Source of the DNA: Cochliopodium minus
Lineage: Eukaryota; Discosea; Himatismenida; Cochliopodiidae
Length of the DNA: 64,000 bases
Direction of reading: 5' to 3'
NCBI GenBank assembly: GCA_024220525.1
Contig: JAMYWO010000003.1
Coordinates: 261,477-325,476 of the forward strand
Shown: in pieces, positions 3,501 through 53,100 of the stretch
How the letters are laid out: every line of letters starts with the position of its first letter
Numbering within the stretch: position 1 is the first letter of the stretch
Translations under genes and position numbers: made by a program
Notes under the pieces: generated by a model
Database searches by the model: none
What the model was told of the DNA's origin: nothing
Seen by the model: the letters and a program-made list of their open reading frames with translations, nothing else

Positions 3501-5160
3501 TAAACGGTGATGTGTCTCGTTTTTTAGAAGGACTTTTTGTAAAAAAAATAAAATTTGAAACAAAATAAAATAATGAAATCATAATAATGAATATTAAAAA
3601 ATTTTGAAATGAAAAATTTTTTAAATCAAAAAAAAAAGTAAAAAATTTTGAAATCAAAAAATATTTAAATCAAAAAAGTAAAAAATTTTTAAAAGACAAA
3701 TAAAATTTTAAAAAATATAAACAAAAAAACTAAAAAAATTTTCTTTACATGCTTGTATCTTTAGCGTATGAGGGAGAAAACTTTCTTTTGGGAGAAGTAT
3801 CAGGAGTTTTTTCGACAATGTTCTCAACAAAATTGAGATTACTCTTGCTCCCATTATGGATGTTATTGTGGCTGAGTGCATGAAAGTCATTAGTAGCAAG
3901 AGTAACATTATTATTATCGGAATGAATATCTTCGTTGGGAATAAAATTTTGAGGAGAAATATCCAAATTGGGAGAATGTGCACTGATGTCATCACTGTTC
4001 TCTATTTTAGGAGAAAGACCATTATTCGAAAAATGAAAAGACTTGATGGGAGTACAATTAAAATCTTCATCGTTGATATCTTCCAAGTCGGGTTTTTGTT
4101 TATTCACACTATGGTTACTGTTAAAAGAAAAGTTTTTGTTGAGGCTGTTCGTGTTGATGGAGTTATTATGAGCAGAATTATTTTTTTTGATGCTCTCCAC
4201 CCTCTTTTTGATGTCCAAGAAGAAATCATCATCATCATCGATTATCTCTTCGTTCAAATGATGCCCATTGCTGAGAGAGCTGTTCATCCCACTCCCTCTT
4301 TTGTTTCTGATCCGATTGTTATTATTTTTTTTGTTATTGCTCTTCTTTATGGTGCTTTGCCCATTTGTATAATTATTGCTATTATTAATGTTGTTGCTGG
4401 TATTGATTCTGAACGATACATTATTATTTTTCACTGAATCTGTTTTTTTTGTTGTGATATCTTCGTCATCTTCCGAGGTGGAGAAGATCTGTTCTACGTC
4501 ATCGTGTTTGATCTTTTTCTGGATGTTGAATACAGGTCTGGATGCTTTCTTGGTGCTGCTTCCCACATTTGATGCTGAATTATTCTTTGTTACAAATTTC
4601 ACTTTTGAAATTTTATCTGATTTTCTTTTCTCTTTGTTTTTCTTTTCATTTTTGGTTGCACTGGGTTGCAATACAAACATTTTCTTTTTCTTATCTGATG
4701 TTGTTATTTGGTGATATTCCATTATATCCCTCTCTTTACTTCTTGGTGGGCTGGGAGACCAATCATCCCCTTCATCATCATCGAATTCTACTTCTTTAAG
4801 TTTTGGTTTTTTATCCAACAGATAATCCAACTTTGATAAAAGATCATCTTCCTTATCCTTCTTTTCAATTTATGTATTATTTTTTATTGGGGTATATTAG
4901 TTTCATATGTTTCATATATTTGCTTTATAAGTTAATATTTTGATTACCTTTTCATTTGCCACTTTCTCATCAATATTTATAACTTTATTTTTTTTTGCTT
5001 CCTTCTTATTCTTTTCAATTCTCTTGTTATTTTGATTAATTTCAAGATTATTACTATTATTTTGAATATTATTGTTTTGAATTTGTTTTGAATTTGGTTC
5101 AATTTTTTTCTGTGGTGGATTATTCCTCTTTTTTGGCATTATCCATCCAGATTCATTCAT
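526..5160 (-). CDS. 1235-aa protein, disordered N-terminal half, C-terminal Cys4 zinc-ribbon-like segment (possible OB-fold protein)
   Basis: Eight exons join in phase: 5160-4948, 4860-3749, 3532-3270, 3159-2339, 2096-1932, 1800-1241, 1169-973, 902-526 (3708 nt). The acceptor of exon 2 could be three bases later. The start is MNESGWIMPKKRNNPP. Residues about 70-440 are Ser/Asn/Asp/Lys-rich with SP motifs and acidic patches. The middle holds a hydrophobic beta-like stretch (NWIVVIIMDMRVQSNSNFIC). The C-terminus has a Cys pair created across the last intron (VCKKC), about 32 residues, then a second pair (HCNSC), as in a zinc ribbon set in a beta barrel. RPA70-C, MEIOB and SHLD2-type proteins have this arrangement, but that link is inference from pattern only. 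No enzyme motif is visible. Confidence 0.7.
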
Positions 5161-5296
5161 TTTCTCTTATTAATTTCTTTTGTTGATTGAGAAAATTTTT
5201 CTTTGCTTCAATTTTTTTTTTATTTATTTTTTAAATTTTCTTCGTAAAATAAAAATAAATTTTTTTAAATTTTCTTCTCAAAATTTTGAAAAGAAT

Positions 5297-6793
5297 TTAA
5301 AAAAAATCATATATTCTTTGAGTAGATAAAGATAGTTTGATTTTCCTTTTTTCTTCTAGATAAATAAAAATGGAATCTTCATACTCGTAAAAGTTGTAAG
5401 GAGAAGTTGATAAAACATTAATGACCTGTTTATATTTTGAATTTTTATCAAAGGAAATGTGAAGATGAAGAACGTGAGGAGGGAGAAAAGAAAGGAAATC
5501 TACCAAAGGAAAAATAGGATAAGAGAAAAAATCAAATTCTTTAGATTTCTCTAATTGAGGACAATCAGTGATAACAACTTCAGTGATACATTTAGGAATT
5601 TTCCAGACATTAAAGTTGTTCTTTCTGTGGGAAGCAATCAAAGCTTCAGTGATTTTAGCATTGACACCAAGTTTCCTCAAAATGGGAAAGTCTCCTTCCT
5701 CGATTTCTTTCTTGAAAAGGTCCCACTCATGAAAATCATAAAGATGGGTATCAAGAAAAAAAGAATGTAAAGAAGGAGGCAATTTAGAATATTTAAAAAC
5801 AGAATGAATGTGGCCAATGGTGTAGAGCAAGTAAAGTTTTTTGACACTTAGAAGAGAGAGTACATCCACGTCTACTTCCGAGCAAGATAAACTCAATTTC
5901 TTGAGTCCTTTGAAGTTGGTAAGGTTGATGATTGTGTTCCTTTCTAATCGATCGTAGTAGAATAAGTTTACAAAGGGATGTTTTTTAAAATTGGGAGAAA
6001 TAACGATTTTCTTAATCTTTTTCATTTCTCCTCTCATTTCTAAATCAAAGAGTTGATTTTTTTGATCAACAATACCATCTTTGTTCACCCATGAGCTATG
6101 AATTAGTTTGAGTGTTGTTAGATTAACGCATCTTCTCAACAATTTCATGAATGTGTCTTTATTTGATAGAACAGGCAATGATAAAGAGGTTATATGATTT
6201 GGGATATACTTGATGGCATCTTCTTTATACATCTTGAAATTGCTTATATCTAATTTTGTTATTTTTTCATCTAATTGATTGAAGAGATGTCCATGTATCC
6301 TTCCTTCCAATGTCAATTTGGTCAAATTTTTAGGCAATTTGAATATCGCTACTTCCGTTAAGGAAGGTACACATGTCAAGCTTTTTAAATTAATACATCT
6401 GTTAACAAACATTAGTACTTCCATCAAAGGATCCCCGTATTTTATCTTTAAATTTAAAATGAAATTCTCTATTATCAATTTTTCAAATTTCTTACAGGTC
6501 CTTCTCAATGATGAATAGTCCATCTTTGAGATATAAGAGAATATATATTTCCATAACACGTTTGGAAGTATGTTTGGAGAAAAATATTCTTTCGATGTTG
6601 TCCAACATAAGTCTTGTTTCTTGGATGATGATTCCTCCATATGATTCATTTCACATAATTTTCTTTTATTGCTTGAATTCAGTACCTCTTCTTTTTTAGA
6701 TGACCATCCATCTTCTATTTTATCAACCATTTCATCGAAATCGAGTTCATAGTCAAAATCATCAAGATTATTATCTCCTCTTTCTTCAAACAT
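5297..6793 (-). CDS. F-box / LRR-like protein
   Basis: A single exon of 498 codons. The start chosen is the ATG of MFEERGDNN; an upstream in-frame ATG at 6829 sits in A/T-rich leader and adds only 12 residues. After an acidic N-terminus, an F-box is visible at about residues 75-115 (ILPNVLWKYIFSYI, then SSLRRTCKKF). The rest is a series of irregular leucine-rich units (NLTKLTLEG, KITKLDISNF, HITSLSLPVL, NLTTLKLIHSS, GLKKLSLSCSEV). By family knowledge, F-box/LRR proteins are substrate receptors of SCF ubiquitin ligases: the F-box binds Skp1 and the LRRs bind the target. The target is unknown. It is one of the few intronless genes here. Confidence 0.85.
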   Translation of the reverse strand: MFEERGDNNLDDFDYELDFDEMVDKIEDGWSSKKEEVLNSSNKRKLCEMNHMEESSSKKQDLCWTTSKEYFSPNILPNVLWKYIFSYISKMDYSSLRRTCKKFEKLIIENFILNLKIKYGDPLMEVLMFVNRCINLKSLTCVPSLTEVAIFKLPKNLTKLTLEGRIHGHLFNQLDEKITKLDISNFKMYKEDAIKYIPNHITSLSLPVLSNKDTFMKLLRRCVNLTTLKLIHSSWVNKDGIVDQKNQLFDLEMRGEMKKIKKIVISPNFKKHPFVNLFYYDRLERNTIINLTNFKGLKKLSLSCSEVDVDVLSLLSVKKLYLLYTIGHIHSVFKYSKLPPSLHSFFLDTHLYDFHEWDLFKKEIEEGDFPILRKLGVNAKITEALIASHRKNNFNVWKIPKCITEVVITDCPQLEKSKEFDFFSYPIFPLVDFLSFLPPHVLHLHISFDKNSKYKQVINVLSTSPYNFYEYEDSIFIYLEEKRKIKLSLSTQRIYDFF

Positions 6794-7044
6794 TTTTTTT
6801 TTTTTTACTTTTGAATAAAAATTTATCATTTGTTGTTTTTGAAATTGGAAAAGTTGTTATAAATTCATTCTTTGATGGTTGAATCAAAAACTTTAATTTT
6901 GAGAATCATATACTTTATTTCCATGGTAATTTAATTTGGCTAAAAATAAAAATGAGAACCCAAAAAAGTACTTATTCTCAGTTGTATCATCCAAATCATC
7001 ACAATTATCTTGAACATCACCTATAACCATCGATTGGAAGTATC

Positions 7045-7416
7045 TTGAAGTATTATATGTTTCTTTTGTATGTATTGTTTGTTGAGTATCAATGGATATG
7101 TCATTTTGAATCATTACATTGGTGTTATTTTCAGCAAATTCCTATCGGGAAGATTTATATTCACTATTGGAGTGTAATAGCAATCTTTATAAACCATTTA
7201 TTTGTGCAATGGATTGATATTGATTTGAATTCTTTCTATTACATCCAAACTATTTTCAAAGGTAGTTCTTTGATTATTTATTTGGGAGCTATTATGGTAA
7301 TATATTACATCATGGATAATGATGGTATTGTAAAAATTAATCATATTTTGGAAGAATATCGATCACAAATGAGAAATGAAAATTCTTTTCTATTTTCTTT
7401 TTTCCCAAATAATTAA
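7045..7416 (+). CDS. Possible small membrane protein (strand and 5' end uncertain)
   Basis: An open frame of about 120 codons ends in TAA at 7416. The first real ATG is near 7057; a splice-acceptor-like TTATTTTCAG at about 7132 could instead make this a 3' exon. The product would have two or three hydrophobic segments (about residues 1-12, 40-55, 70-88) and a hydrophilic C-terminus (NDGIVKINHILEEYRSQM). The complementary strand also reads as hydrophilic coding-like sequence in pieces (NNTNVMIQNDISIDTQQT), so the gene could lie on the minus strand. I cannot settle this without transcripts. No family recognised. Confidence 0.35.
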   Translation: MKYYMFLLYVLFVEYQWICHFESLHWCYFQQIPIGKIYIHYWSVIAIFINHLFVQWIDIDLNSFYYIQTIFKGSSLIIYLGAIMVIYYIMDNDGIVKINHILEEYRSQMRNENSFLFSFFPNN

Positions 7417-7562
7417 TTCTCCCTTTAAACATTCATTGGTTATAATAAGAAATGATTATGGGAAAACTTGAAAAGATCAAAATAGGAGAAATTGTTTGAT
7501 AGTATTCAAATAAACTCAATTTATAAAATAAATAAAAAAAATCTGTTTAAATTATAAAAACA

Positions 7563-8808
7563 ATGTTCAATTGGGCATTTGGAAATAATAATAATAACAC
7601 AACTACTCCACAACCAGAAGTTGATGATGGAAAACCTTCTATTCGAGGATATAAACTTTTTATAGATGAAGACTTTGATAAATTCATCAATCTTTGTGAA
7701 TCTGATGGACCTGAATGGATTGAATGTAGCAAGACTGATACTTTAAGAATCACCAGAAGACCTGATCCTGAACAAAGAACATCTATCGATATCATTCGTG
7801 TCCAAGCAACTTTAGATGTTGATCCTGAGACTGTAGTTGAAGTATTGGAAAATTCAAATTTTAGAAAGGAATGGGATGAAAAATTGTTGAAAAATGGATT
7901 GATTGAGAAATTGGATGAATCAAACAATATAAAGTAAAAAAAAAAAACATTGAATATCTTTTAAATATATATATTTTTGATCTGTTGTTTTAAATAAGAA
8001 CTGATACGCTTTAATTTAAATTTTTAATTCACAATCCATTTTCCTCTTATAGTTATTATGCTGGAGCTGCACCATCCCCTTTATCAAATGTAATAAAAAA
8101 AATATTTTTTTTGCAAAATATAAAATTATTAAGCTTTTGAAGAATATATTTGATGAAATTCAGAACAACAAACTTAATTTTCCTTTGATATTAATCATAT
8201 TTCTTTTTGAACTGATCATTATATTCTATTTTTTGGACAGAGAGATTTTGTCACACAAAAATCACATAAATATTTGTATAAAGAAAAAAGACAATGGGTG
8301 ATGTTCAATAGAAGTGTTACTCATGAAAAAGTTCCTGAAAAAGTGGGATTTGTAAGAGCACATTCTTTTGGAACCGGAAATTTTGTTAAAGAAAATGAAA
8401 ATGGAAAGGCCTTTGTGACATATATTGCACAAGCAGATCTAAAAGGATGGGTAAATAATTTTTTTTTTTTCATTTTTGAAATTATACATTTAATTAAAGA
8501 TAAATCAGCTATAATATTCATTATATATGATTTATATATCTAATCTTGATCCATTTATATGACTTGATTTGATAATTCTTTTTATATTCGTTTTTATCTC
8601 GACAAAATATATTTTTTTTTTTTTTATATTTATTCGAAACTTTATCAATAAATAGATTCCTGGTTGGGCTGTTTCATGGGCTACTTCCATGACTGGTCCT
8701 CAGTTGATGGCAAACTTGGAAAATGCATGTAAAAAATTCCCTGAATGGAAAAAAAATAATCCAGTGAACACACCAGTATATTTTTTTTCTGAAGATGAAA
8801 AAAAATAA
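7563..8808 (+). CDS. START domain lipid-binding protein
   Basis: Four exons join in phase: 7563-7933, 8053-8089, 8241-8450, 8656-8808 (256 residues). After an Asn/Thr-rich leader the whole protein is a START fold: START-like features are DGPEWIECSKTDTLRITRR, the VDPETVVEVLENSNFRKEWD helix and strand, YYAGAAPSPLS, the catalytic-loop-like RDFVTQKSHKYLY, and a C-terminal helix (SMTGPQLMANLENACKKF). START domains bind and transfer phospholipids, sterols or ceramide in a hydrophobic tunnel. Here there is no targeting signal or membrane segment, so a soluble cytosolic lipid carrier is likely. The ligand cannot be read from sequence. Small stand-alone START proteins are common in amoebae. Confidence 0.9.
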
Positions 8809-9208
8809 AATGATTTTTTTCTTATTGCCGCTTTTTTTTTGTCTAAAATAAATTAATAATCAAAAGTATCAACAACAATAACTATTGATTTAATATACAA
8901 TTAATATTCACATTAAAATTTATCTTAATTAGATGTGTAATTGATTTTTAAAAGAATAAATGACATTTCATTTTTTAAATTTTTTTTGATATATCAGATG
9001 TTCAGCATTTATTCCATTTTTAAAAAAAATTTATTCAAATGAACCAAATATTTTTAACACGAATATCTGCCAAATTGATTTCGAATCTTTGTTCATAGAA
9101 AAATATTCCAATCTAAAAAAAAAAATTTTAAATTCAAACATTCCTATTTTTTCCGTAAAATACAGAAAATAAAGAAAAAAAATTTGTTCCCAAAGAAAGA
9201 AGCTCAGA
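8809..9208. other. Intergenic A/T-rich spacer
   Basis: A 400-base spacer between the START gene and the first Cys-module gene. Only short interrupted frames and A/T runs are present; I see no RNA gene or repeat. Confidence 0.5.
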
Positions 9209-10074
9209 ATGAATATTAAATGCCCAATTTGTAAAATTGATAGATTAGAAAATCCCAAGAAGTTTAGAAATTCAAACATAAAATGTATTGATTGCAACAA
9301 TTTTATTAAGGAATCAAAAAGAAGAAAACAAATTACGGGAAAATGTACAACATGCATACACAACAAAATTGATAATCCTCTTAAATTTAGGTTTTTTTTT
9401 ATTTATAAACAAAAGAGATGTTTTTTAATCTTTTCAATGTTTTTTTTTTGAATCAAATTTAGGTCTGGTAACTTACAATGTAACGATTGTCTGGAGAAGA
9501 TATTAAATAGATACAGAAATAATTTGAAAAAAGGAAATTGCAAGAGCTGTACCAATAATCGAAACACCGATCCTCACAAATTCAAGAATGAAACAATAAA
9601 ATCATGTAACGATTGTATAGTAAAACAAAAGGTAAGTTAAATATTCTGAAATTTATATATTTTAATTTTGAAATACAAATAAAAAAAAAAATATAGCTTT
9701 ACCATCAAAACAAGAAGAGAATAAATGAAAGAGAAAATAAAAAGAAATCATCATACCCAAATAAAAGAATAAATTTGAATCATACGAAAGGTATAATTTC
9801 TTCCTTCAAATCCCTTCCTTTTGATTAATTAATAATCCTTTCCTTCATAGACATTTTGTCAAATATTTCTGTTGATCAGCAAAAAGATTTGAAGAAAGAA
9901 ATAATAAAGGGAGATAATCAAATCAACAAACAAAATGATATAACAGAAATAAATAGGGATGAACGATCAAAAGATTTGAATTCAGACCTCCAAATAGAAA
10001 ATTTGATAAAGGGAAAAGAGCTTCATTTTTTTGAATTTATATTTGCTGTGTCTGAAAGAATAAATGATTTATGA
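9209..10074 (+). CDS. Triple CxxC-module protein, copy A (putative zinc-binding repeat protein)
   Basis: Four exons in phase: 9209-9390, 9463-9631, 9697-9790, 9851-10074 (222 residues). Three tandem modules follow the pattern C-x2-C, 17-18 residues with a central [KD]xP.KF[RK], then C-x2-C: CPICKIDRLENPKKF..CIDC, CTTCIHNKIDNPLKF..CNDC and CKSCTNNRNTDPHKF..CNDC. The spacing suggests each module binds one zinc ion through four cysteines. A Lys-rich linker (LYHQNKKRIN) and an acidic/hydrophobic tail ending near FEFIFAVSERINDL follow. I do not recognise a named family. A close paralog with the same exon pattern is at 52247-53100, and a more distant one starts at 10837. The basic linker would fit nucleic-acid binding, which is inference. 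Confidence 0.8.
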
Positions 10075-10419
10075 ACAATTAAAATTTTTTTGATTGGTAT
10101 GAAATCTGCTTCTTTCAAACATAATCTGTTCACTCAAATTAAAAATTTGAATTGAAAATTTTTAAAATTTTTTTTTATAATTTTTATATGAGCATAATAA
10201 TATATTACATCATAGATTTGAGAATGTTCCGAAGGAGATGTTTTCTTTCACTTTTTACCAGCCATGGATAGAATTGAAATTTCCTTTTCAAAAAAAATAG
10301 AATTTAATTTCCTAAAAATGATTTATTAAAAACAAAGTCCAGATTGGATGATTAATAAGGTTTTTAAAATTTAAAATATCTTTAATTTCTATTCTTTCTT
10401 TTGCTTTCAACATAATAGC
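10075..10419. other. Intergenic A/T-rich spacer
   Basis: About 345 bases between copy A and the decayed copy; no gene seen, only interrupted short frames. Confidence 0.4.
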
Positions 10420-10715
10420 TGAAGAACAAGGGAAAATATCTTCAATACAATGAGAACAGGTTCTTCAATCAATTAGACTTTCCAAAAGAATAGAAGTTAA
10501 AAAGCCCAAAGCAGATTTCATTTTAAGAGACTTTTTGTAGATTCAATCATAATTTGTTAGAAAAAGACGATTTCACATGCTTCGACTTTGATCAGACAAA
10601 AGGAACTCCTTGGTTAAAGAGATAAATTTTTAATTTTTAAAGGAAACAAAGCAGATGTTCTAAACTAACATGAGTTTGAAATAAATTTTGATGATTTTTT
10701 TTTTATGTTATGAAT
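10420..10715 (+). pseudogene. Decayed 3' end of a CxxC-module gene
   Basis: No open frame, but the DNA aligns by eye with the last exon of the next gene (11369-11781). Shared stretches in the same order are TTCCAAAAGA, GAAAAAGA-GATTTC, ATCAGACAAA-GGAA, AACTCCTT/CTCCTTGGTTAA and GAAATAAATTTTGAT just before the end. The counterpart protein tail reads EKEDFFKYCDLDQT...FEINFDF; here frameshifts and stops break it. The Cys modules themselves are not preserved upstream. This is best read as a relic of a tandem duplication within the cluster; limits are approximate. Confidence 0.6.
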
Positions 10716-10836
10716 ATTTGACACCATTTCAAAAAAATTAAAAAAAAAAATTGAAAGATCTAGCTTTTCTTTTTATTAAGTAACAGATTCAAGTATTCAA
10801 TCTTGACAATTACAGCATAAAATATTCTTCAAAAAG

Positions 10837-11781
10837 ATGAATCGATTGAGATTTTGTGTTACTTGTTCAAATAATACGAAAACTACTCCCCAAAAATTTA
10901 CTAATGATAAATATAAATCATGTGATGATTGCAGAGAAAAAACAAAAATCAAAAATAACCAAAAAAAGAAAGGTTCTAATTTTTTTTTTGCTTTTTCGTT
11001 TTTTAAAAAAATTTTTTTTTAGAAGGGAGATGTGGGAGATGCACAAATAACAGAAAAGAACATCCTCATAAATTCAAAAAAGATGTTGCGAACTGCCTCG
11101 ATTGTATTCAAAAAGATCAAAGTAAAAAAGATTCATCTCCTTTAATTCATTATTTTGTTCTTACAATAAACAAAGATATGGTTAAAGGAAAATGTCCTTC
11201 TTGTCAAAACAACCGGACTGAACATCCTTCCAAATTCAAAAATAATAAAATAAAAACATGTACTGAATGTTGCGAAAAAAAAAAATTTGATTATTTAAAA
11301 AGTGAATACTTTTTTGTTATTTTCTTTTGTGAAAAAACTTTATCATTTTTCATTTTCTTTGTTTTTAGAAATTGGAGAAGTAAAATGCCCTAATTGTAAA
11401 AACAACAGGAAGGAACATCCTCTAAAATTCAAGAACCTTCTAATTCAAACTTGTATCGACTGTTCTGAGAAAAAAAAGATTGATTATGTACTCAAAAAGA
11501 ATAAAAGAGAAAATCCTAATCAAAATAATGAGATTGAGATTCCAAAAGATAAGAAAATCAAATCAAACTCTCCAATAGATTTAGGGCCTCAAGGAGATAT
11601 TACACCTTTTTATGATAGCGTTATTCCTAGTTTGTTCGAAAAAGAGGATTTCTTCAAATACTGCGACTTAGATCAGACAAATGGAAACTCCTTTGTTAAT
11701 GAGATTAATTTTGATTTTTTAAAAGGAGAGAAAGGAGATGATTTAAATGAAAATCAATTTGAAATAAATTTTGATTTTTAA
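10837..11781 (+). CDS. Quadruple CxxC-module protein, copy B (putative zinc-binding repeat protein)
   Basis: Exons 10837-10972, 11023-11121, 11176-11301 and 11369-11781 join in phase (257 residues). The 54-nt intron between exons 2 and 3 is itself open and divisible by three, so it may be retained. Four modules: CVTCSNNTKTTPQKF..CDDC, CGRCTNNRKEHPHKF..CLDC, CPSCQNNRTEHPSKF..CTEC, CPNCKNNRKEHPLKF..CIDC. Module boundaries nearly coincide with exons, so exon duplication probably built the array. The tail is acidic and Phe-rich (FFKYCDLDQTNGNSFVNEIN...FEINFDF) and differs from copies A and C. Function unknown; zinc binding is inferred from the cysteine spacing. Confidence 0.75.
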
Positions 11782-50704: not shown

Positions 50705-51740
50705 TTAATTATCTTTTATTCTTCCCATAATATTTCTTAATTTATTATAAACTTTGCCGGCAGGAGAACCCAAAATCAAAGAAAACAAAGCATCTTTGGT
50801 AATTTGTATGTTGTGATAAGAACCCAAAATATGAACACGCTTATCAGCAACAACAATACGAGTTCTGGTAGTATTTTCAATGGCAAATTTAGTTTGTCCA
50901 TCAGTACCAACAATACGTCCAATTGCACGAGCTAATATAAAAAAAAAAGAGATTAATCAAAAGTAGAATAAAATTGATTAAAATTTTTTCTTACACAAAT
51001 TATCTCCTTTCAAAACTTGTTTTACATCTAAAATATTAAATGAATCAACATATAATTCTTCTAGTCTTAACAAAGCAATGCAATCTTTTAATTCAAAACC
51101 TATTTCAAAGATAAAAAAAAAATGTAATAAAAATTATAGCAATAAAGATATTGAATGAGATTTGAAAATGAAAGATAGATTATCAATTTTAAAGATGTTT
51201 TTCTCAAATATTTATTAAAACTTGATTTGTGGAAAATTTAATTTACCAAGCAAAAATGCTTTTACATAATCTTCTCCTTTTTGAAGTGATCCAACTTCTT
51301 TTGTGTATTGTGATGTTTTGAGTTCTACTTTTTTGGTTTGAATGTTAAATCTTACTTGCAATTTGCAATGTTCGATGAGAGGTGTAACCATTTTTGTCCA
51401 TTCAGATTTGAGTGGTCCTAATCTATGTGTAGGTACAGGGATTGCTCTATAATCAGATTTTCCATTCTATATTTTTTGATCAAATACAAATAATTTTGAA
51501 AAAAATGAAGAAATAAATGTGATATGAAAAGAATTAAAAATAATCCTTCAAATATAAATTAATTTCCGAGTGAAAGACAATGATTATTTATAATGATGGT
51601 TTATTATTAATTCTTTATTATGAAGAAATATTTACATTCATTTGATTTGGGGTTAATTGGGAGAATGTTGGATCTTCATTTTCCTCAATATCTTCTTCAA
51701 TATCTTCCTTTTCAATCATATCCATATTATCATCTTCCAT
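50705..51740 (-). CDS. PNO1: PNO1/Dim2, KH-domain 40S ribosome assembly factor
   Basis: Four exons in phase: 51740-51636, 51466-51247, 51099-50995, 50931-50705 (218 residues; human about 252). After an acidic N-terminus come IPVPTHRLGPLKSEWTKMV, the helical LQKGEDYVKAFLLGFELKD, a KH domain with the diverged loop SRAIGRIVGTDGQTKFAIEN, then the family signature TRTRIVVADKRVHILGS and the end LILGSPAGKVYNKLR. PNO1 binds the 3' end of 18S pre-rRNA with Nob1 during 40S maturation and must be nucleolar then cytoplasmic. All family-defining segments are present; this is one of the safest calls in the window. Confidence 0.96.
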
Positions 51741-52246: not shown

Positions 52247-53100
52247 ATGAATATAAATTGTATCAATTGTTCTAATAATAGAATAGATCACCCTCATAAG
52301 TTTAGGAATTCGAATATTAAATGCATTGATTGCAACATCTTTATAAAGGAAGCAAACAAAAATAAAATTTTGAATAGAAAATGTACAACATGTTTTTTTA
52401 ACCACAATGAACATTCTCACATGTTCAGGGGTAATAAAAAGAACTATTTAAAATAAATTTTTTTTTTTTTTTTTACTTATTCGAAATTTCTTCGCTATAG
52501 GTGATAATAAGCAATGCAACAATTGTTTGGGGAAAATTCTAGAGAGATACAGAAAGAATCTTTCAAATGGCAAGTGTAAAAGTTGTCCAAATAACAGAAA
52601 CACAGATCCTCATTTGTTTAAAAATGGTTCTATAAAATCATGTGATGAATGTAGAGTGAAACAACAGGTAAAATGATGAATATATTTAATTAAATTATTT
52701 TAATCACAATACAAAAAATAAAAAATATATATAAATTTTTATATTAATTTTTTTTTAAATCCTTGCATATTCTAAAAAAAAAATATATCTTTAGCTCTAT
52801 CATCAAAGTAAAAAGAAAAGGAAAGAAGCTCAAAACAATTCATCAAGAACAAATAAAAGAATTAATACAACGGGTAAATAAAATTTCCCAAATCCCCTTT
52901 TATTAATATTAAATCTTCAATTCAAATTCAAACTAGATTTTCCAAAAGATACCACTTTAAATTCCCAAATAATTCAAAAAGAAAATCAAATCGACAACAG
53001 AATATTCTATATGAAAAGAGATGAAGAAAATGCAGCAAATACTTTGGAAAAAGAAAAATTCTTTTTTGAATTTATTTTTTCACATCCAAATGAAAATTGA
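52247..53100 (+). CDS. Triple CxxC-module protein, copy C (putative zinc-binding repeat protein)
   Basis: Four exons in phase: 52247-52430, 52501-52667, 52795-52873, 52937-53100 (197 residues). The modules are CINCSNNRIDHPHKF..CIDC, CTTCFFNHNEHSHMF..CNNC and CKSCPNNRNTDPHLF..CDEC. Exon 1 plus exon 2 total 351 nt, the same as in copy A at 9209, and both copies share the third-exon start LYHQ and a linker with TNKRIN/PNKRIN. The tail again ends in a Phe-rich element (KFFFEFIFSHPNEN). Copy C is therefore a close paralog of copy A, 43 kb away, while copy B is more distant. Zinc binding is inferred; function unknown. Confidence 0.82.

Follow-up and report, generated by a model that had tools for sequence, protein, structure and literature searches.

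A genome-wide family of tandem Cys4 modules in a single-celled eukaryote, with features of zinc-finger arrays

Background

Large families of multi-finger regulators are known mainly from C2H2 proteins. In poly-C2H2 families such as KRAB-ZNF, lineage expansion has produced proteins with up to a dozen tandem basic fingers and linkers of conserved length. The GATA finger (PF00320), a module with C-x2-C-x17 spacing, carries the core LWRR and the helix start CNACGLY, and occurs as one or two fingers in the entries listed. The B-box, FYVE and ClpX C4 domains are Cys-rich zinc modules too, and the usual setting of the ClpX zinc domain is an AAA+ ATPase. In phages, a module leading endonuclease VII/HNH shows C-x2-C, a Phe, C-x2-C and then a basic stretch; most records annotate it in nuclease genes, and no repeat of it is seen in the stretches examined. 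With respect to fold, the available text of PMC4999995 describes the treble clef as a fold in which a zinc knuckle supplies two of the metal ligands and the N-terminus of an alpha-helix the other two.

Here we report a repeated module with the pattern C-x2-C-x17/18-C-x2-C in an AT-rich single-celled eukaryote, analysed in one window (the whole stretch of DNA studied, 64,000 nucleotides) and across the assembly of 44.65 Mb in 598 contigs. In the open-licence PMC texts available to us, no described family of this kind was recognised.

Results

Genes and modules in the window

The window holds three genes with ten Cys4 modules (three, four and three in genes A, B and C), located where a sequence-only reading of the same DNA had placed them. 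All three gene models are predictions, made without transcripts by our own gene finder or by hand. The features are as follows.

Gene A, 9209..10074, + strand: four predicted exons (9209-9390, 9463-9631, 9697-9790, 9851-10074), 222 aa, three modules, tail ending in HFFEFIFAVSERINDL
Module A1, 9221..9295, + strand: C-x2-C-x17-C-x2-C
Module A2, 9344..9490, + strand: x17, split by the predicted intron 9391-9462
Module A3, 9539..9616, + strand: x18
Decayed fragment between A and B, 10547..10692, + strand: found by blastn against the window, E 6e-33
Gene B, 10837..11781, + strand: three predicted exons (10837-10972, 11023-11301, 11369-11781), 275 aa, four modules, aromatic/acidic tail ending in ENQFEINFDF
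Module B1, 10855..10932, + strand: x18
Module B2, 11031..11105, + strand: x17
Module B3, 11193..11270, + strand: x18
Module B4, 11386..11463, + strand: x18
Gene C, 52247..53100, + strand: four predicted exons (52247-52430, 52501-52667, 52795-52873, 52937-53100), 197 aa, three modules
Module C1, 52259..52333, + strand: x17
Module C2, 52382..52526, + strand: x17, split by the predicted intron 52431-52500
Module C3, 52575..52652, + strand: x18

Genes A and C, with 67% DNA identity over 505 aligned bases and 56% protein identity, are paralogues whose predicted intron layouts match. Their first intron lies inside module 2, shortly 3' of the Phe codon, and falls after base 182 of the predicted coding sequence in A and after base 184 in C, two bases apart; the second falls after coding base 351 in both, and the third has the identical phase. 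The intron positions that the sequence-only reading described as shared between the two copies are thus found again. Between A and B, the decayed fragment is 81% identical to the tail of gene B over 151 aligned bases, with broken frames and no module seen in it; judged by this alignment, it is the relic of a further tandem duplicate, one that the sequence-only reading does not mention. Elsewhere in the window, a KH-domain-like fragment at 50705-50956 on the - strand resembles Pno1/Dim2 by eye.

Definition of the module and its predicted fold

The module is roughly 41 residues long, with the consensus GKCxxCSNNRKD[HN]PxKF[RK][NG]xNKTCNDCLEK. After splicing, all four cysteines are intact in each of the ten window modules, as had been claimed, and Phe is present in all ten as well. 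In the translations, however, HP occurs in 4/10, Pro in 9/10 and KF in 8/10; the HP-x-KF motif quoted earlier is therefore too strict, the fixed residues being the four Cys and the Phe. Among 88 complete modules in the genome, the two Cys pairs are separated by 17 residues in 62, by 18 in 22 and by 19-20 in four. Phe is present in all 62 x17 modules and in 21 of the 22 x18 modules, and the first residue of 'HP' is His in only 29 of these 84.

For a control against chance, a profile was built from the 33 non-window modules of a 41-module alignment and compared with eight window modules, the intron-split A2 and C2 being excluded. These eight score 25.8-46.9 bits, and in 500 shuffles per module with the cysteines held fixed, none matches any real window-module score. 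This shows that the family is defined by the residues between the cysteines and not by Cys alone.

AlphaFold models were made from window sequences only (inputs of 8 and 7 sequences), giving two models with three modules in all and mean pLDDT of 66.7 and 52.1. The better one covers 11368-11511 (module B4), where a helix begins at the third Cys. A helix begins at the third Cys or one residue later in all three modelled modules, at low confidence, and neither model has a strand of three or more residues or a beta-hairpin (mean pLDDT 52-67). Structure comparison of the AlphaFold model found no chain to align. From the models, the modules would be treble-clef-like in fold; they probably bind zinc, which fits the strict retention of cysteines.

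A family across the genome

The loci were collected by protein searches of the assembly with different module proteins as queries. The genome-wide count of copies, a check suggested in the sequence-only reading, comes to 25 or more gene loci, spread over 19 contigs. This figure is a lower bound; every locus reached E<1e-3 in one search or more, and five of the loci are on the contig of the window. Contigs C182, C592, C284, C166 and C101 gave matches only at E about 0.1 or worse. A home-made module profile, run over 21 fetched regions and the window at domain E<=1e-3, gave 106 matches. Among them are the 88 complete Cys4 modules, all distinct, and the remaining 18 are partial, intron-split (some being halves of one module) or diverged. 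In addition, 31 gene models were made with a script that gives a bonus to Cys codons and so favours module finding. We count 23 of these models, standing for 23 of the 25 loci, and leave out eight: six represent neighbouring genes or Cys patterns due to chance, and two, for C87 and for the first part of C522, are fragments of family genes. No model was obtained for the C76 gene. Genes outside the window are named below by their contigs.

Array architecture and conservation

The predicted proteins carry from one to twelve modules. The largest number is found in the C5 and C84 genes, where a short first exon without modules is followed by three module-bearing exons of four modules each. When the second module exon is compared with the third, the best match lies in the same slot for 4/4 modules in C5 and 2/4 in C84, and this slot-by-slot match supports duplication of a four-module exon. 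The earlier proposal of exon duplication thus stands for the repeated four-module exons of C5 and C84, but not for a single module as a single exon, as the intron of A and C runs through module 2.

Measured in the 23 models between the closing Cys of a module and the opening Cys of the following one, the linker has 16 residues in 37/70 cases, one of which stems from mis-parsed units of the C195 gene, and 12 residues in 8/70; the count uses a loose Cys pattern, by which two early units of C195 look mis-parsed. The difference between 16 and 12 residues is about one helical turn, and fits a helical linker holding the modules in register. We infer that the linker is helical and that neighbouring modules are so kept.

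The three longest arrays, C5, C84 and C195, were compared over their final block of four modules. There pS is 0.77-0.85 and pN is 0.09-0.20; dN/dS is 0.24 for A versus C and 0.37 for C136 versus C141. The saturated synonymous change together with low pN points to old genes under purifying selection. These three arrays were also aligned at six matching slots. Residues that vary from slot to slot yet are constant within each slot concentrate at positions 1 and 2 (knuckle), 15 (after the Phe), 22 (second CxxC) and 25, 27-29 and 31-35 (helix); at positions 8, 9, 11-13, 26 and 30 no such signal rises above the rest. The slot values are inflated by the shared ancestry of the slots, with the contrast between positions remaining, and in short-linker slots the columns from about position 35 overlap the next module. 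As residues are fixed finger by finger, each finger has an identity of its own, as expected for specific recognition, and the pattern suggests that the modules differ in what they recognise.

Comparison with known families

Scored against Pfam, all 41 aligned modules stay below every cut-off, so that no characterised zinc-finger family claims the module there. The nearest is zf-B_box (PF00643), matched by 1/41 modules with E 0.00039 and 21.0 bits against a cut-off of 24.1, followed by the ClpX zf-C4 (PF06689) with 2/41 modules, at best E 0.00078 and 19.7 bits against 27; the protein of the gene C3:254k also matches the latter below cut-off (E 0.0035, 17.7 bits). FYVE (PF01363) gives sub-cut-off matches for 6/41 modules, best E 0.015. 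The B-box, FYVE and ClpX C4 modules are likewise Cys-rich, but none reaches its cut-off here. For a sequence of the ClpX zinc domain, 250 of 500 Cys-fixed shuffles reach its score against the module profile, and the AAA+ ATPase is absent in the family here. NCBIfam yields a best E of 0.0078 over the 41 modules, the first module having no match, and PHROGs yields no relative for the 41. In PDB, one module profile finds nothing at E<=10 and a second finds three entries at E 0.68; by sequence, gene A has one match at E 4.8 and a four-module protein none. No relative was confirmed in the viral contigs, prokaryote genomes and phages scanned (best E 5 in phages); the contig scans, being seeded with exact peptide patterns, are insensitive to distant relatives. 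In agreement with the earlier impression of an undescribed module, it looks to fit no known family in the Pfam, PDB, viral or prokaryotic sets.

The GATA finger resembles the module in several respects. Its spacing is the same as that of the family, C-x2-C-x17/18-C-x2-C in 84 of 88 modules, and both are basic, with an aromatic residue and basic neighbours between the Cys pairs. However, this aromatic is Trp in GATA and Phe in the family, LWRR and CNACGLY are absent with KF[RK] and CNDCLEK in their places, and the arrays here reach twelve fingers. Just 1/41 modules matches PF00320 (E 0.025, 14.6 bits against a cut-off of 26.8), and no GATA match at E<=1 is found in 12 family proteins scanned. 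By hhalign, the modules align with six GATA fingers in full register at a non-significant E of 0.11, against 0.15 for a phage-versus-GATA control. For three GATA fingers scored against the module profile, 30, 29 and 173 of 500 Cys-fixed shuffles do at least as well. With its best match below the PF00320 cut-off and a similarity that many Cys-fixed shuffles reach, the module is not classed as a GATA finger, though it shares the GATA spacing and may act in a similar way.

The phage endonuclease VII/HNH modules have a longer spacing between the Cys pairs than the family, and 637 records match a consensus of them at E<=0.01. For eight of ten fetched phage modules scored against the module profile, 48 to 493 of 500 Cys-fixed shuffles reach the score, and hhalign places the two sets out of register (E 0.12, not significant). 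The poly-C2H2 families are alike in overall design; the arrays here differ from them in C4 chemistry and unrelated sequence, and are conserved between old paralogues. On the whole, these repeated modules appear to be home-grown zinc fingers, perhaps serving to read DNA or RNA.

Charge, tails and accompanying regions

The module span is net positive in all 23 gene models. Strict NLS-like clusters, arising partly from the Lys-rich modules and linkers themselves, are present in 12/23 family proteins versus 5/32 control proteins of the same genome (P=0.005). Acidic/aromatic tails are seen in some members, e.g. B, C5, C84, C195 and C366. For 23 family proteins against 32 controls, an acidic/aromatic excess appears at one of five joint cut-offs only (9/23 versus 4/32, P=0.025), the other four giving P=0.08 to 0.77. 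A general tail score over the whole protein shows no excess (median 22 in the family and 23 in controls), the C-terminal 40 residues show no acidic/aromatic difference (P=0.39), and the N-terminal 40 residues are on the whole less acidic/aromatic in the family than in controls. An excess of acidic/aromatic activation domains over the whole protein was therefore rejected. The sequence-only reading had taken basic linkers and Phe-rich acidic tails as a hint of nucleic-acid or protein binding; the basic charge and the NLS-like clusters agree with the nucleic-acid part, but the tail excess depends on the cut-off.

Thirteen family proteins were scanned for other domains, and no DNA-binding, nuclear, RNA-associated, nuclease or other domain is above cut-off in them. 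The C3:396k gene (L032, G000:C3:390000-399990, 5716-7856) encodes 675 aa with three N-terminal modules, long Asn/Lys/Glu-rich stretches and an AT-hook-like PRKRGRPKK that scores 11.2 bits, below the Pfam cut-off of 17.4. The protein of one C337 gene, outside the 13 scanned proteins, is rich in Arg, Ser and Asn at its N-terminus, where SPSRS and SRSNSPSR occur. Near the end of contig C407 (L049, G000:C407, 3729-4734), one gene is predicted to combine a module with an N-terminal part that resembles Tudor domains below threshold (E 0.2 in Pfam, 0.24 in PDB), possibly a chromatin-domain fusion if this uncertain gene model holds. A chromodomain in this gene was rejected, as there is no chromo match and the Tudor-like similarity is below threshold.

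Two other loci deserve mention. In L037 (G000:C21), at 4802-5735, a family member is preceded by a very long Asn-rich stretch; low-complexity regions occur in social-amoeba proteins, and this stretch resembles them. In L048 (G000:C50), two CDCA7-like genes, at about 6351-7591 on the - strand and 8210-8981 on the + strand, adjoin a family member. In its N-terminal part, the first scores 29.5 bits for zf-4CXXC_R1 (PF10497), whose cut-off is 22.7, and the second resembles the first by eye.

Discussion

The explanation we favour, with about even confidence, is that the family consists of nuclear nucleic-acid-binding regulators built from tandem treble-clef-type zinc fingers. In each finger, the zinc knuckle would be formed by the first C-x2-C, and the second would begin an alpha helix whose continuation serves as linker to the following module, so that up to twelve fingers at a nearly fixed period (linkers of 16 or 12) would make a regular, basic array. 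As for location and target, which we infer, the proteins would be nuclear and regulate transcription or chromatin by binding nucleic acid, DNA being the likeliest, and the acidic/aromatic or Asn-rich tails may be effector regions in some members. A more specific form is put forward here quite tentatively: a lineage-invented polydactyl Cys4 system for reading DNA, in which helical linkers of 16 or 12 residues hold the fingers in register, the knuckle and helix residues of each finger determine its target, and the arrays grew by duplication of four-finger exons.

The main rival, a possible one to which we give a minor share of belief, is that the arrays are protein-interaction scaffolds, in which zinc-stabilised adaptor repeats bind partner proteins and the basic charge is incidental. 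The nearest Pfam matches (zf-B_box, ClpX zf-C4 and FYVE), although all below cut-off, are of this sort, and the slot-specific helix residues suit partner docking as well as DNA contact. Treble clefs moreover have many roles besides nucleic acids, according to the available text of PMC4999995. Against scaffolds, the ClpX zinc domain does no better than its own shuffles, every counted module span is basic, and NLS-like clusters are enriched. Basic charge would equally suit arrays that bind RNA in processing or silencing, and the SR-containing stretches at the N-terminus of the C337 gene also speak for such a role; we regard it as unlikely, the scan of 13 other family proteins having given no RNA-associated domain above cut-off.

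We think it very improbable that the modules are zinc fingers of a mobile element or nuclease, live or domesticated, and kin of the phage endonuclease VII/HNH CxxC modules. Those modules are present in many records and have C-x2-C...F...C-x2-C with basic residues in common with the family, yet all eight tested lie within their own Cys-fixed shuffles, no viral or phage relative was confirmed, and none of the 13 scanned proteins has a nuclease domain. The reading of a catalytic His, as in His-Me nucleases, was rejected too, since the 'HP' position is mostly not His.

Should the specific form of the favoured explanation be true, polydactyl Cys4 arrays would stand beside the C2H2, TALE and PUF arrays as an independent scaffold for modular recognition. 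An independent Cys4 expansion in a protist, of almost constant repeat period and with residues conserved slot by slot, would give a second natural case for the evolution of modular recognition, and the family would provide candidate regulators for its lineage that the searched family libraries do not name.
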